DNA from: Prochlorococcus sp. AG-355-N16
GTDB taxonomy: Bacteria; Cyanobacteriota; Cyanobacteriia; PCC-6307; Cyanobiaceae
DNA: 64,000 nucleotides
Direction: 5' to 3'
NCBI GenBank assembly: GCA_003278545.1
Contig: QCEF01000003.1
Coordinates: 62,001-126,000, forward strand
Part shown: positions 44,707 through 49,300 of the stretch, in pieces
How positions within the stretch are numbered: the first letter of the stretch is position 1
How the letters are laid out: every line of letters starts with the position of its first letter
Program-made: the position numbers and the translations under genes
Notes under the pieces: model-generated
The model's input: the letters and a program-made list of their open reading frames with translations, nothing else
Told to the model about the DNA's origin: nothing
The model's database searches: none

Positions 44707-45494
44707 TGTTTAATAAATTTTGGTTTGACGCAAAAAATATAAATTGTTTTAAAAATGGCTTTAGAGTAATTAAAGATTTAAATTTAAAGATAGCGTATTC
44801 AGAGAATGTAATATTAATTGGGCCAAATGGTTCAGGGAAATCATCCTTAATTGAAATAATTAATAGAAACATACACCCAGTAGTAACTAATGAATCGAAA
44901 CTGAAGATATTTGAAAAAGAACTTATAAATTTATGGGAACTAAGAAAAAAAATAAGTACTGTAAATAATGATATAAAAAATAGAATAAATCCAAATTTAA
45001 AAGTTTTTGATTTAATTTTAAGTGGACTATATGGAAAATATTGTTACGTGCAAAATAAATCTGAAAGAGATTATCACAAGGTGGGAAAAATCATGAAGAA
45101 AATGAATATATCTAATTTATCTAAAAAGAACTTTTCCTATTTATCTGATGGAGAAAAACAAATTTCTCTCATTGCAAGGGCATTAATCAAAAAACCAGAA
45201 ATCTTAATCCTAGATGAACCAATTGCAAATTTAGACTATAAATCAAAGTTTTTTGTAGTTGATAAGGTTAATGAATTATCAAAATTAAATACCAAAATTT
45301 TTTGCGTCACTCATGATATTTCAACGATCTCGAAAATTTATGACCGGGTCATAATGCTAAAAAATGGCAAAATTATCGCTGATGGAGATCCAAATAAGGT
45401 TATAAATAGCGAAAATCTTAATAAGTTATATGGTATTCAAGTAGAGGTAACTAATAATAATGGACTTTGGAATATAAACAGATTATCTAAATAA
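44706..45494 (+). CDS. orphan ABC-transporter-type ATPase
   Basis: A 262-residue ATP-binding protein starting at GTG 44706. Walker A is GPNGSGKSSLIEIINR (about residues 40-55), the signature is the unusual YLSDGEKQISLIARAL (LSDGE instead of LSGGQ), Walker B is ILILDEPIANLD and the switch His lies in CVTHDIST. The closest types are the ModF/YlmA-like and iron-siderophore-like ATPases. No permease gene is adjacent. It overlaps the mini-membrane gene by one base and the convergent zinc-ribbon gene by eight bases. Confidence 0.88.
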   Translation: MFNKFWFDAKNINCFKNGFRVIKDLNLKIAYSENVILIGPNGSGKSSLIEIINRNIHPVVTNESKLKIFEKELINLWELRKKISTVNNDIKNRINPNLKVFDLILSGLYGKYCYVQNKSERDYHKVGKIMKKMNISNLSKKNFSYLSDGEKQISLIARALIKKPEILILDEPIANLDYKSKFFVVDKVNELSKLNTKIFCVTHDISTISKIYDRVIMLKNGKIIADGDPNKVINSENLNKLYGIQVEVTNNNGLWNINRLSK

Positions 45495-45675
45495 TAATTA
45501 TGAAAATAGCTATCGCAATAACAAGAAATACTAATTTTTTACTTTTAAAAAATGAAGAGGATCTATTTTTAAATGAAGAAGATCCACATTTAGAGCACAC
45601 AATCTTACCTCCTAAGGAACGATCTGAGACGAATGAAGAACTTCCGCAATTAAAACAAACTCTATTTAAGCTCAT
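45487..45675 (-). CDS. zinc-ribbon, C-terminally anchored membrane protein, 62 aa
   Basis: MSLNRVCFNCGSSSFVSDRS begins with C7-x2-C10 and continues to a second pair C27-x2-C30 (GKIVCSKCGSSSF), a four-cysteine zinc ribbon in which CGSSSF is repeated. A Ser/Phe/Lys-rich linker leads to one C-terminal transmembrane helix (LVFLVIAIAIFIIII). I chose ATG 45675; a TTG three bases upstream is in frame. The opposite strand has an open frame too (45500-45682), but it lacks any motif. Confidence 0.72.
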   Translation of the reverse strand: MSLNRVCFNCGSSSFVSDRSLGGKIVCSKCGSSSFKNRSSSFFKSKKLVFLVIAIAIFIIII

Positions 45676-45750
45676 CAAATAAAATATCTAAAAATTATAA
45701 CTAAATTATATTCCTAAATACTATGTAAAGAAAAACTTCAGAAATACGAT

Positions 45751-45814
45751 GATAATGAGAATCTATTGCAATAAATATTTTTTTAGTGCATAATTGATAA
45801 TAATTCTCATTATC
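45751..45814 (+). promoter_or_regulatory. promoter flanked by two Fur-like boxes (Crp-type regulator gene)
   Basis: GATAATGAGAATCTATTGC (45751-45769, 14 of 19 matches to GATAATGATAATCATTATC) and GATAATAATTCTCATTATC (45796-45814, 16 of 19) bracket a sigma-70-like promoter TTGCAA (45766)-N17-CATAAT (45789). Two boxes overlapping the -35 and the -10/start region are the classic layout for iron-dependent Fur repression. The gene begins at 45827. Boxes are seen; Fur binding is inferred. Confidence 0.7.
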
Positions 45815-45826
45815 ATATTCAAATTA

Positions 45827-46414
45827 ATGCATTTTTATAGCTATGGAGAATCTCTGTCAAAATCAGTAAGTGTAATAACTGGGCAATCCGTATTAATAGA
45901 TCCTTCATCAAGACAAAAAGGGACATGCCTAGAAGTTGTAAGTGGAATTGCTCGAGTTTATTGCCCTTGTCAAGAAACGGAAGGAATGACACTTGCATTC
46001 TTACAATCAGGAGATCAATTAAGAACTGACCTTTTATGTAGTGAAGGTGTCTGTGTTGAAGCTTTAACAGATTTGTCTTTTCATAGCAATGTAAATATTG
46101 ATGAGAATATTGGTTTCGATGCAGTAAATGAATGGACTTTGCAACTCCTTAGGATTAGACACTTAGGAAATGCAGAACAGAGATTAAAAGCCTTGTTTTC
46201 AATACTAGTAAATCGTCTAGGTAGAAGATGTGGTCAATGGTGCGAGTTACCTTTTAGGTTAACTCATGAAAGGATTGGCGAATTAATCGGTTCTACACGA
46301 GTAACTTCAACAAGATTAATTTCTAAATTAAGATCATCTGAGTTATTAATAGCTCCTATCGGAACCCAAACAGTCAGTGTCGCCCCTTCTTTTATTGAAA
46401 CATCGCCGCTATAA
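45827..46414 (+). CDS. Crp/Fnr-family transcriptional regulator
   Basis: A 195-residue regulator: an N-terminal cyclic-nucleotide-type beta barrel (about residues 15-105, with CLEVVSGIARVYCPC and FLQSGDQLRTDLL) and a C-terminal winged helix of the HTH_Crp type (FRLTHERIGELIGSTRVTST, recognition helix VTSTRLISKLR). The effector pocket of Crp is not well conserved and there are several cysteines (CPC, CVE). I chose ATG 45827 because a TTG at 45794 would place the Fur-like box inside the gene. Fur-like boxes upstream and ferritin downstream suggest an iron-response role. Confidence 0.88.
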   Translation: MHFYSYGESLSKSVSVITGQSVLIDPSSRQKGTCLEVVSGIARVYCPCQETEGMTLAFLQSGDQLRTDLLCSEGVCVEALTDLSFHSNVNIDENIGFDAVNEWTLQLLRIRHLGNAEQRLKALFSILVNRLGRRCGQWCELPFRLTHERIGELIGSTRVTSTRLISKLRSSELLIAPIGTQTVSVAPSFIETSPL

Positions 46415-46418
46415 AAAC

Positions 46419-46709
46419 ATGAAGGAATCACAATCACTTACAAACAACTTGTTAATGGAAGTTGATGTTTTATCGAATAGACTCAGAAATATCAAGCAAT
46501 CCTACAAAACAACAGAAAATAAAGCATTGAAGGGTAGGTTATTTACTGAAAACAGAAATCTTTTTAAAAGAGTTAATGAGATTTATAAAATAGCTGAACT
46601 CTTAAATAAAAACAATACTGATAATATTAACTTTTCTAATTTACTTGTTGAAATAACGAAAAGAACATTGAATGAAAATAAATTTGAAAGTAATCTATTT
46701 TTTCTTTAA
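46419..46709 (+). CDS. coiled-coil hypothetical protein, 96 aa
   Basis: Starts four bases after the regulator stop (MKESQSLTNNLLMEVDVLSN) and is almost entirely helical with heptad-like Leu/Ile spacing (RLRNIKQSYKTTENKALKGR, LFKRVNEIYKIAELLNKNN). Probably co-transcribed with the Crp-type gene. Its 3' end overlaps the convergent ferritin gene by 15 bases. Function unknown. Confidence 0.68.
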   Translation: MKESQSLTNNLLMEVDVLSNRLRNIKQSYKTTENKALKGRLFTENRNLFKRVNEIYKIAELLNKNNTDNINFSNLLVEITKRTLNENKFESNLFFL

Positions 46710-47249
46710 ATCACTATCTATCAATAAGATTGCAGAAGGTTGATTAGAAGCAAACTTTACTTTACCAAGTATGTTTGCGAATTCATCTTCTGATTTAGTT
46801 TGAGCCTCAATGATTGGATCTAGAAATACATTAGTTCTTGTATCTGAAATTCTTTCTGAAATAGAATAAAGCTGTTGCAGAGATGAAGTTAAATCAGCCT
46901 CCATGTTGAAAGAATAAGAAATCAGATCCTCTATTGAATCCCATGCTTGAACTGGTGCAGGAATTTCATCTAATTTTACGCTTTGTCCTCTTGCGATTAA
47001 GTAATCTGCAAATTTCTGAGCATGTTCCATTTCACCTTGTGATTCACTTAGAAAATGAGAAGCAAATCCATTTAAATCACGTTCTTGGAACCAGAGGTAT
47101 ATGGAAAAATATTGAACATTGGCGTATCTTTCCATTGTTAAATGTTCAAAAATATTATCCAATAAACTTTTGTCAATTGGTTGTGCTACAGCTCTTCCAG
47201 ATGGACCAAAATTAATTAATTTCTTTAACTTTAGATTATTTTCTTTCAT
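46695..47249 (-). CDS. ferritin (non-heme iron storage)
   Basis: A 184-residue four-helix ferritin that oxidises Fe(II) and stores iron as a mineral core. The ferroxidase-site glutamates and histidine are in LFDNIFEHLTMERYANVQYF-like helix A (LTMERYANVQYFSIYLW) and helix B (SESQGEMEHAQKFADYL, ExxH), with QTKSEDEFANIL in helix D. I chose ATG 47249; a TTG six bases upstream is in frame. A Fur-like box lies 85 bases upstream. It resembles the ferritins known from marine cyanobacteria. Confidence 0.92.
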   Translation of the reverse strand: MKENNLKLKKLINFGPSGRAVAQPIDKSLLDNIFEHLTMERYANVQYFSIYLWFQERDLNGFASHFLSESQGEMEHAQKFADYLIARGQSVKLDEIPAPVQAWDSIEDLISYSFNMEADLTSSLQQLYSISERISDTRTNVFLDPIIEAQTKSEDEFANILGKVKFASNQPSAILLIDSDLKKK

Positions 47250-47333
47250 TGCCAAATAAGAAACTAATAAAATAATACAACATTTTGTATAAATTAGTAA
47301 TTAATTAATCCTTTAAATTAAATTAAATAATAT

Positions 47334-47352
47334 GATAATGAAAATCAATCTC
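47334..47352. promoter_or_regulatory. Fur-like box between ferritin and the Lys/Cys-rich peptide
   Basis: GATAATGAAAATCAATCTC matches the Fur consensus at 16 of 19 positions. It lies upstream of ferritin (minus strand) and ends 10 bases before the ATG of a 40-codon ORF on the plus strand, so it could control either or both. For ferritin genes both repression and activation by Fur are known in bacteria. Confidence 0.6.
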
Positions 47353-47362
47353 AATACTATAT

Positions 47363-47485
47363 ATGAATTTACAGTGCAGATTTTCTGAACTGCTATTAAC
47401 TAATAAAATATATAACAGTAAAAAAAAGAAATGTAAAAAGAAAAAATGCTCTAATTGGAAGGGGGGCAAGTGTAATTGCCTATAA
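47363..47485 (+). CDS. 40-residue Lys/Cys-rich peptide
   Basis: From ATG 47363: MNLQCRFSELLLTNKIYNSK, then KKKCKKKKCSNWKGGKCNCL and TAA. Five cysteines, four of them in the last 17 residues as C-x4-C-x7-C-x-C, with two KKKKC repeats. This is an unusual metal-binding or nucleic-acid-binding composition. It begins 10 bases after a Fur-like box and ends 8 bases before the convergent futC-like stop. No family recognised; because it is short, coding status needs support from conservation or expression. Confidence 0.5.
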   Translation: MNLQCRFSELLLTNKIYNSKKKKCKKKKCSNWKGGKCNCL

Positions 47486-47492
47486 AAAAAGT

Positions 47493-48569
47493 CTATATAT
47501 ATTCCTTATATGCTCCAGGATATAAAAAATAATAACTCTTTCTATTAATAGAAAGAGAACATTTATCGCCATTATTAAGGAGATTATTAATATCAGTTCT
47601 AACCCTTAATATGTTTCCATTAATAGATACTTTATATATAAGAAATTCTCCAAGAAATTCTTTAGATATAACAATCGCATCACCAGATTCTGATCTTTTA
47701 ATTGAAATAAATTTAGGCGAAATTGACATACTTTTGATAGTTATATTTTTCAAATACTCTGAACAATTTATTTCACCTAAACAAGAAATATATGAATTAC
47801 CATTTTTTTTGAGATTAATAATATTATTACCCAAAATAAAACTACTAACAAATATTGTCTTGGGATTATTTATAAGGTTAATTGGCGTATCAATTTGATG
47901 TATTTTCCCATCATTCATAACCGCGACCTTATCACAAATTGACATCGCTTCTTCCGGATCATGAGTAACCATCAATCCGCTCGCATTACAACCTTTTAGG
48001 ATATTAGGGAGTTCACTTCTCAATTTTAGTTTGACATGCATATCAAGACTACAAAAAGGTTCATCTAATAAAATAAAATTTGTACCTGGAGCAAGAGCTC
48101 TCGCAATTGCGAGTCTTTGTTTTTGGCCTCCAGACAGTTCATGTGGGTACCTTTCAACAAAACTATCAAGACCAACAACATTCAATAAATAATCAACTCT
48201 AGATCTGTCTTTTTTGTTTTTCAAACCAAAAATTACATTTTCCAAAACAGTTAAGTGAGGGAAAAGTGCATAGTCTTGAAAAACCATACCAATATTTCTT
48301 TTCTCAGGATTAAGAATTTTTTTCCTACTTGAAATTTCCTTATCATTTAGAGAAATCACTCCTTTAGAGGGATATTCGAACCCAGCGATTAATCTTAAAA
48401 GAGTAGTTTTTCCGCAACCAGAAGGACCAAGCAAACCTAACAATTCGCCATTTTCAATTTTCAGGTTAATTTTGTTTAATATCCAATTTGAACATTCTCG
48501 CTTATCATATTTATGATGCAAATCATCAATTATTAACGCATCATGTTTCACAAAGTTCTTCTTATTCAA
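47493..48569 (-). CDS. futC: ferric iron ABC transporter ATPase (FutC/FbpC type)
   Basis: A 358-residue ATPase of the FbpC/FutC class that energises ferric iron import. Walker A GLLGPSGCGKTTLLRLIAGF (about residues 44-63), Q-loop GMVFQDYALFPHLTV, signature ELSGGQKQRLAIARALAP, Walker B FILLDEPFCSLD, switch MVTHDPEEA, then a C-terminal TOBE-like beta domain of ~110 residues. The iron specificity is inferred from the class and from ferritin next door; related sulfate, spermidine and thiamine ATPases look similar. Permease and FutA genes are not in the window. Confidence 0.8.
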   Translation of the reverse strand: MNKKNFVKHDALIIDDLHHKYDKRECSNWILNKINLKIENGELLGLLGPSGCGKTTLLRLIAGFEYPSKGVISLNDKEISSRKKILNPEKRNIGMVFQDYALFPHLTVLENVIFGLKNKKDRSRVDYLLNVVGLDSFVERYPHELSGGQKQRLAIARALAPGTNFILLDEPFCSLDMHVKLKLRSELPNILKGCNASGLMVTHDPEEAMSICDKVAVMNDGKIHQIDTPINLINNPKTIFVSSFILGNNIINLKKNGNSYISCLGEINCSEYLKNITIKSMSISPKFISIKRSESGDAIVISKEFLGEFLIYKVSINGNILRVRTDINNLLNNGDKCSLSINRKSYYFLYPGAYKEYI

Positions 48570-48646
48570 ATATTTTAAATTAGCAGAAAATATTCACCTA
48601 AAATATCCCATGTATAATTTTATACACCATTTAATTTTCAAATTTA

Positions 48647-49300
48647 ATGAGAAAGTCTGAAAGAGCTGAAATAATACGCAAGGAACTCAAAAAGCTATAT
48701 CCATCGCCTCCAATACCCCTTAATCATACAAATGCATATACACTTCTAGTCGCAGTAGTTTTAAGTGCTCAATCAACAGATAAGAAAGTTAATGAATTAA
48801 CAAACAGCTTATTTAAAGTTGCAGATAATCCAGAAAAGATGATGCAGCTAGGTATTAATGGCATTTACGAATACATAAAATTTTTAGGTCTATCTAATCA
48901 AAAATCAAAGAACATCTATAACTTATCTAAATTATTGATTGAGAAGCATAATGGCATGGTCCCAGATTCTTTTGAGAAGCTTGAATCTCTTCCAGGGGTA
49001 GGTCATAAAACAGCATCAGTTGTAATGTCTCAAGTGTTTAACATACCCTCATTCCCAGTAGATACTCACATACACAGGTTGGCACAAAGATGGGGCCTAT
49101 CAAATGGCGATAGCGTAGTTCAAACAGAAAAAGACCTAAAAAAAATATTTCCTGTTAATGATTGGAATACCTTACATTTGCAAATAATCTTTTATGGCAG
49201 AGAATACTGTACAGCAAGAGGTTGTGATGGAACAAAATGTTATTTATGTCGCAATCTTTATCCCAAAAGAAAAAAGAAATTTATATGTAAAAAGCCTTAA
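48647..49300 (+). CDS. nth: endonuclease III (DNA glycosylase/AP lyase)
   Basis: Removes oxidised pyrimidines. The 217-residue product has the HhH motif LESLPGVGHKTASVVMSQ with catalytic Lys121 and the catalytic Asp139 (FPVDTHIHRLAQRWG). The C-terminal [4Fe-4S] region reads C188-TARGC193-DGTKC198-YLC201: four cysteines are available, but spacing is C-x4-C-x4-C-x2-C rather than the E. coli C-x6-C-x2-C-x5-C. Such ARGCDGTKC versions occur in cyanobacteria. Divergent from futC. Confidence 0.95.
   Translation: MRKSERAEIIRKELKKLYPSPPIPLNHTNAYTLLVAVVLSAQSTDKKVNELTNSLFKVADNPEKMMQLGINGIYEYIKFLGLSNQKSKNIYNLSKLLIEKHNGMVPDSFEKLESLPGVGHKTASVVMSQVFNIPSFPVDTHIHRLAQRWGLSNGDSVVQTEKDLKKIFPVNDWNTLHLQIIFYGREYCTARGCDGTKCYLCRNLYPKRKKKFICKKP

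Follow-up and report, generated by a model that had tools for sequence, protein, structure and literature searches.

A conserved lysine- and cysteine-rich mini-protein of picocyanobacteria, very probably coupled to ferritin: a possible starvation-induced partner for iron return

A large part of the photosynthesis in the ocean is due to Prochlorococcus and marine Synechococcus, for which iron is often limiting. To our knowledge the way iron is returned from non-heme ferritins is an open question, and we know of no dedicated protein partner described for a bacterial non-heme ferritin. In Desulfovibrio, desulforedoxin and rubredoxin, whose metal knuckles are C-x2-C, are redox partners of ferritin. 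The cysteines of Bfd are spaced C-x-C ... C-x2-C, and the cyanobacterial metallothionein SmtA is a small Lys/Cys protein with nine cysteines. According to the available parts of the sources, Bfd is a small [2Fe-2S] protein, employed when iron is deficient, whose expression differs from that of the neighbouring bfr (PMC7762939), and bfd expression falls when Fur rises (PMC12363616). For the ferritin SynFtn, iron uptake and oxidation have been studied, and the accessible portion of that work names no release partner (PMC8743623); an excerpt of another text doubts its storage role (PMC7762939, section 17), and the extract available for Synechococcus ferritins gives mixed iron responses (PMC9723758). 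The accessible portion of PMC10545762 adds nothing to this.

The window (the whole stretch of DNA analysed, 64,000 nucleotides) contains a short ORF between a ferritin gene and an ABC ATPase gene, in the following arrangement.

45827 to 46414, plus strand: Crp-family regulator belonging to the conserved neighbourhood; a 17/19 Fur-like box of its own lies at 45796-45814
46695 to 47249, minus strand: ferritin of the SynFtn class (PF00210), the divergent neighbour; its best PDB matches include 5ouw
47363 to 47485, plus strand: mini-protein gene, 40 aa, ATG to TAA, supported by conservation and a pN/pS of 0.26 over 109 distinct versions
47420 to 47485, plus strand: C-terminal module, residues 20-40 and stop, KKKKCKKKKCSNWKGGKCNCL, with a pN/pS of 0.03 and 11 invariant columns
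47493 to 48569, minus strand: ABC ATPase ("futC"), the convergent neighbour (PF00005)

The original prediction described a 40-residue ORF with two KKKKC units and a C-x4-C-x7-C-x-C tail, starting 10 bases after a 16/19 Fur box and fitting the gap before the ATPase gene. Each of these points is confirmed: the translation of 47363-47485 (+) is MNLQCRFSELLLTNKIYNSKKKKCKKKKCSNWKGGKCNCL, its cysteines 24, 29, 37 and 39 form the tail, the box lies at 47334-47352, and the ORF ends 7 nt short of 47493, the stop end of the convergent ATPase gene. Residue 5 is a fifth cysteine and is atypical (Y in 94/103 and C in 2/103 distinct orthologous ORFs). The proposed neighbours hold as a ferritin and an ATPase; the entry 5ouw is wild-type SynFtn, according to the accessible text of PMC8743623. 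The name futC is only contextual, because the match to the NCBIfam model for ferric-transporter ATPases stays under the cut-off. The Crp-family regulator is kept in the ferritin neighbourhood in many fetched loci of many genera, and the box directly preceding it in the window scores better than that of the peptide gene. At 45487-45678 (-) a further ORF encodes 63 aa that include two C-x2-C pairs and end in a hydrophobic tail; zinc-ribbon models match it below their cut-offs.

The 40-aa frame is matched in 196 of the 249 genomes of the genus Prochlorococcus (E<=1) and in 80 of the 83 of good quality; among the matches listed its length is mostly exactly 40 residues. The best named relatives of the peptide are Prochlorococcus single-cell genomes, with strain MIT 9401 among them, which places the window in this genus. 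For the coding test we used 174 loci of the genus, the better-scoring among the matches listed, the weakest not being included; many are the same genome repeated, which leaves 110 distinct versions, collected by tblastn without any motif pattern. All have an uninterrupted frame over the last 40 codons, except one, the paralogue of the window's own genome. Over the remaining 109 the pN/pS is 0.256 for the full frame, 0.70 for residues 2-19 versus 0.028 for residues 20-40; thus the function resides in the C-terminal half. None of the 109 departs from the four cysteines, W32 or G34, and most lysines of the module change at most once. The alternative frames are interrupted in every version, by at least one stop in +1 and at least five in +2. 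A set of 103 versions, chosen by a pattern demanding the lysines, cysteines and tryptophan of the module, gives a pN/pS of 0.24 overall and 0.022 in the module, but its invariance is partly built in because the pattern required these residues. The prediction would have been refuted by a frame that is unconserved while the flanking genes are conserved; the opposite is found, and it is virtually certain that the ORF is a real, conserved gene. Codons 22 and 26 (AAG, within the lysine runs) are nearly frozen, in 215 of 218 cells; at 20 nearly invariant lysine sites of the ferritin and the ATPase the AAG share is 0.91 at most. This freezing indicates some constraint at the nucleotide level too; perhaps these codons interrupt A-runs and guard against slippage.

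The module has the consensus KKKxCKxxKCSxWKGGxCxC and stands at the C-terminus after a variable N-terminus, which is loosely kept in Prochlorococcus, differs in other genera, and is often MAQPIG-like in Synechococcus-like genera. Searching with the last 21 residues as a single sequence (E<=1) finds the module in 229/271 Cyanobiaceae genomes and 31/34 genera, and a 20-column profile (E<=0.01) in 221/271 genomes and 29/34 genera. Eleven columns are invariant in an alignment of 28 hand-chosen sequences, but module columns do vary in other copies (P for S in L260, W-T-G-G in L037). In a class-wide sample of 291 genomes (E<=0.1), 44 match, 32 of them Cyanobiaceae. The 12 outside this family reach a best E of 0.0019; the matching stretch was inspected in nine of them, without the four cysteines being in place in any, and we treat these matches as chance. 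Neither Pfam, NCBIfam nor PHROGs holds a relative of the module; the peptide matches no Pfam family up to an E of 10, and only chance-level entries in the PDB. A viral origin was rejected in the absence of any confirmed relative in viral contigs, phage records or PHROGs (15 stretches of viral contigs fit a short pattern, none was confirmed). Our literature search found no description of the peptide, which does not exclude that one exists.

The genome of the window also carries a 28-aa paralogue of the module, MADKKKKKKCKKKKCSNWKGSKCICYGQ (L002/L124, G000:C14:19241-19306, minus strand), present in several Prochlorococcus. It lies behind an amidohydrolase-like gene and directly adjoins a polysaccharide-lyase-like one (Pfam assignments made for the L106 copies); at the loci examined no Fur box was detected and no iron-gene neighbours were seen.

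The position of the peptide gene was compared in a panel of 53 Cyanobiaceae genomes, hand-picked and mostly complete. The window ferritin or a homologue (E<=1e-5) is present in all 53 and the peptide in 52, with 54 copies. Ferritin lies within 500 bp of 35 of these copies, 32 divergent and 3 convergent, and within 5 kb of 39. The 15 copies that are not near ferritin comprise two 28-aa paralogues, each accompanied by a ferritin-linked copy in its genome (one is the second copy of the window's own genome); the sole, paralogue-like copies of G347 and of six g22 genomes, all six with ferritin; and the copies of six genomes from g14, g18 and g28. Five of the g14/g18 loci were fetched. In L091, L094 and L119 the peptide gene converges with the gene of a two-domain permease, and in L094 and L119 a FutA-like gene comes next, whose product has iron-binding proteins as best PDB matches; the copy in L118 lies near katG, and that in L122 adjoins a Crp-family gene only. 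The permease matches NCBIfam transporter models below cut-off only and is called futB by context. None of the searched-for genes is near the peptide in the g28 locus L101. The g15 locus L092, in the order futA, futB, peptide, ferritin, joins the ferritin context and the FutA/permease context. In genomes where a ferritin of another class replaces SynFtn, the peptide gene is 134-163 bp away and convergent in 6 of the 8 placed cases; in the remaining 2 that ferritin is elsewhere. At one locus (L256 of G424, 1724-2841) an other-class ferritin and a Dps-like gene stand tail to tail beside the peptide, with a ZnuA-like gene near, names being given by inspection. In L104 the ferritin match (G370:C1:431234-431758) has one internal TAA, and no Fur-like box can be detected for its peptide.

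Outside the window's genus we scored 184 Cyanobiaceae genomes for the peptide and for SynFtn-type ferritin (E<=1e-30): 124 have both, 15 the peptide alone, 5 the ferritin alone (G253 and four g22 genomes, all without a peptide match) and 40 neither, three of these being placed there by subtraction. Some "neither" genomes gave weak peptide matches (E 0.29-0.92, single-sequence search). Fisher values on this co-occurrence ignore phylogeny. With PF00210, and a limit of 100 bits for a "24-mer ferritin" that is our own choice, 10 of the 15 peptide-alone genomes, all checked, carry another ferritin above the limit (the 8 placed cases are those of these ten for which both positions were known), and five peptide-bearing genomes have none over it. 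Among the "neither" genomes, 0 of the 19 tested (of 40) reach 100 bits; we read the lower-scoring PF00210 members found in most of them as Dps-like.

Within nine genera, the peptide and SynFtn-type ferritin are concordant in 98/111 genomes, the best of 20,000 within-genus shuffles giving 86; for any 24-mer ferritin the concordance is 107/111 and the best shuffle 91. Under either definition none of the 20,000 shuffles is as good as the observation. Excluded from this test are g22, whose copies apparently belong to the paralogue type, and four genomes whose genus is inferred; a count that keeps them in gives 123 and 114 of 132 concordant genomes for the two definitions of ferritin. The SynFtn-only count is the cleaner, because PF00210 was applied to only 19/40 "neither" genomes versus all 15 peptide-only ones. 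Joint absence occurs in g3, g9, g14, g15, g20, g28 and g31, including in single-contig genomes (G310, G334, G338, G406, G407, G410, G413). For adjacent genes one deletion can suffice for such a co-loss; yet joint absence is also seen in g20, where the two genes are 4.2-4.5 kb apart in four panel genomes, and in g14, where they are unlinked in two. In the window's genus 82/87 genomes have both genes and the same five lack both, which a missing contig would explain. Taken from gene content and order, a coupling of the peptide to ferritin thus appears very probable. A peptide kept or lost with ferritin is therefore possibly a missing factor for regaining stored iron under iron shortage.

The region between the two divergent genes has the following elements.

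47250 to 47362, no strand: ferritin/peptide intergenic region, compared over 100 distinct upstream sequences
47334 to 47352, plus strand: Fur-like box GATAATGAAAATCAATCTC, 16/19, 10 nt before the ATG, with 15-16/19 in 102/103 Prochlorococcus versions
47334 to 47339, plus strand: likely -10 element, GATAAT, overlapped by the Fur-like box; from sequence comparison, the promoter reading being an inference

Scores refer to GATAATGATAATCATTATC, which we take to be the Fur consensus. A score of 16/19 is attained by 3 listings in the window, at 2 places, against an expectation of 0.13 from shuffling. In 95/103 Prochlorococcus versions the box begins at position -29 relative to the ATG, and 14/2060 mononucleotide shuffles of these reach 15/19; the 102/103 and the upstream counts rest on the pattern-selected set. 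The ~95 nt nearest the peptide gene are nearly invariant within Prochlorococcus. Across loci, copies were counted at p<=0.06 against 300 dinucleotide shuffles per locus, L236 being left out. The box is then found in 3/4 ferritin-linked copies of the window's genus and in 9 of the 16 divergent ferritin-linked copies scored in other genera (7/16 not detected). These nine come from seven genera, and in each of them the site stands 97-113 nt ahead of the first KKK codon; g7, an eighth genus, shows a weaker one at the equivalent position (p=0.15). It is found in 5/13 convergent, 4-kb and unlinked copies, and in 0/6 scored paralogues. The site opens with TATAAT in loci of g2, g3, g8 and g21, so that Fur would cover the -10 element, as we infer TATAAT/GATAAT to be. 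We regard control of the peptide gene by Fur as likely, its expression being inferred. The suggestion of an iron-responsive mini-protein between a ferritin and an iron-import ATPase is thereby upheld, by the ferritin link and the Fur-like box, as far as sequence alone can do so. On the ferritin side, 47274-47292 is a nearly invariant element, AATACAACATTTTGTATAA, with a TACAA-N4-TTGTA inverted repeat; several other genera have a AAATGATACAAG-like sequence at its position. It is a possible ferritin operator.

The Bfd profile PF04324 matches 0/53 panel genomes while it is positive in 7/14 of a control set, so the role of Bfd is vacant in these genomes. The peptide has a charge of about +10 and a pI of 9.9, the ferritin about -8 per subunit and a pI of 4.9, as calculated from their sequences. 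Our main reading, to which we give a probability of roughly 0.4, is that the peptide is a metal-binding micro-partner of non-heme ferritin, induced by iron starvation, Bfd-like in action and unrelated to Bfd. When iron is plentiful, Fur-Fe on the box overlapping the -10 site would keep the gene off; when iron is exhausted, Fur would depart and the peptide be produced. The four conserved cysteines would hold one metal centre, which may be a single Fe, a small Fe-S cluster or Zn. The positive peptide would dock on the acidic ferritin shell and might there help to reduce or extract stored ferric iron, as happens elsewhere with Bfd and bacterioferritin. Low iron switches a Fur-repressed gene on, and a ferritin partner made then should therefore aid release or stop storage; the four cysteines and the opposite charges lead to the model of a metal-holding cation docking on ferritin. 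Metal binding is only inferred, from the conserved cysteines, and so are docking and the direction of action; the iron-release mechanism, drawn by analogy with Bfd, remains tentative. The 28-aa paralogue without a detectable Fur box, which is the only kind of copy in the g22 panel genomes, the five genomes with ferritin and no peptide match, and the five with the peptide and no clear 24-mer ferritin count against this reading, as do the 7/16 divergent copies without a detected box, the possible loss of adjacent genes in one deletion, the weak structure model and the unfamiliar cysteine spacing.

The genomic facts would be met almost as well by a peptide that blocks iron loading or buffers metal. 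We cannot exclude that the partner acts in reverse and blocks or redirects loading, for instance with its cationic tail plugging the threefold channels, so that scarce iron stays unstored. Such a blocker would have the same ferritin linkage and co-occurrence, the same Fur logic and the same opposite charges, it needs no redox centre, and the accessible part of PMC8743623 states that Fe2+ enters SynFtn through these channels. It seems unlikely, nevertheless, since the four conserved cysteines are then unexplained unless they bind Zn or Fe2+ in a purely structural way. Slightly less probable still is a metallothionein-like buffer or chaperone for Fe2+, Cu+ or Zn2+ that delivers metal to ferritin, takes it from there, or protects against metal set free in stress. 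Lysines adjoin cysteines throughout, one copy is near katG (L118), another (L256) has a ferritin and a Dps-like gene as neighbours and a ZnuA-like gene close by, and copper raises SynFtn according to the available text of PMC7762939 (section 17); but only four cysteines are conserved, there is no Pfam match, and the upstream box is Fur-like.

Two further readings are improbable. The original prediction had allowed for binding of nucleic acids, and a small, very basic peptide, with a Crp-family regulator nearby in many genera, could be a zinc-knuckle-like regulator of iron genes; this is not excluded, but it has no specific support, as the distribution of the peptide tracks ferritin and nothing observed points to a DNA or RNA target. 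Alternatively the module could be a general metal-binding tag, its link to ferritin being purely regulatory through a shared low-iron stimulon, as the paralogue with neither detectable Fur box nor visible iron neighbours would suggest; the joint absences within genera, even in g20 (~4 kb apart) and g14 (unlinked), speak against it. That the ORF is no gene, merely a chance frame or a conserved RNA, can be set aside: it has the nearly frozen AAG codons 22/26 in its favour (215/218 cells), whereas the matches in the genus with purifying selection (module pN/pS 0.03), the identical module residues over 29 genera and an empty Rfam scan of 46600-48700 rule out the one and leave the other without a match.

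We therefore return to the reading of a release partner. If it serves both SynFtn and another class of 24-mer ferritin, the peptide would be a dedicated partner of bacterial non-heme ferritin. Somewhat more speculative is the wider idea that in picocyanobacteria, where we found no Bfd, iron is released from non-heme ferritin (or its passage gated) by an unrelated minimal metalloprotein of ~20 functional residues that iron starvation induces. With a ferritin-coupled gene, a Fur-like box and a four-cysteine cation, the question of iron return from ferritin becomes directly testable with a synthetic 40-mer.

Homology of the peptide to Bfd, rubredoxin or metallothionein is unsupported by Pfam, NCBIfam and PDB searches. 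Its AlphaFold model is weak (pLDDT 66, pTM 0.27), with a low-confidence helix at 3-20 and a better scored but irregular C-terminus, and Foldseek finds no structural match to it. The cysteine spacing fits no Fe-S or rubredoxin motif that we can recall. Like MntS-type small proteins of a metal system in E. coli, the peptide is small and, by inference, metal-regulated, but it has another metal and other neighbours. It shares with SmtA-type metallothioneins the lysines beside cysteines and the scarcity of hydrophobic core, and differs in having four cysteines, a ferritin link, a Fur-like box and no match to Pfam; no curated metallothionein family of Pfam or NCBIfam matches it. Like desulforedoxin and rubredoxin it is a tiny four-cysteine protein that could hold one Fe, but it lacks C-x2-C pairs and any match in sequence or fold. 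From Bfd it is distinguished by the absence of a match to the Fer2_BFD profile, by its C-x4-C-x7-C-x-C spacing, by a cofactor that is undetermined and by its partner, a non-heme ferritin; thus there is no heme to receive electrons, unlike in the Bfd system. With Bfd it has in common its very small size, four cysteines, a neighbour gene of the ferritin superfamily and an expected expression at low iron. The first Bfd-type trait of the locus, a gene beside a ferritin-superfamily gene, is met by 35/54 copies within 500 bp; the second, control by Fur, is predicted by the box in 102/103 Prochlorococcus versions and in 9/16 divergent copies elsewhere, a prediction made from the DNA only.
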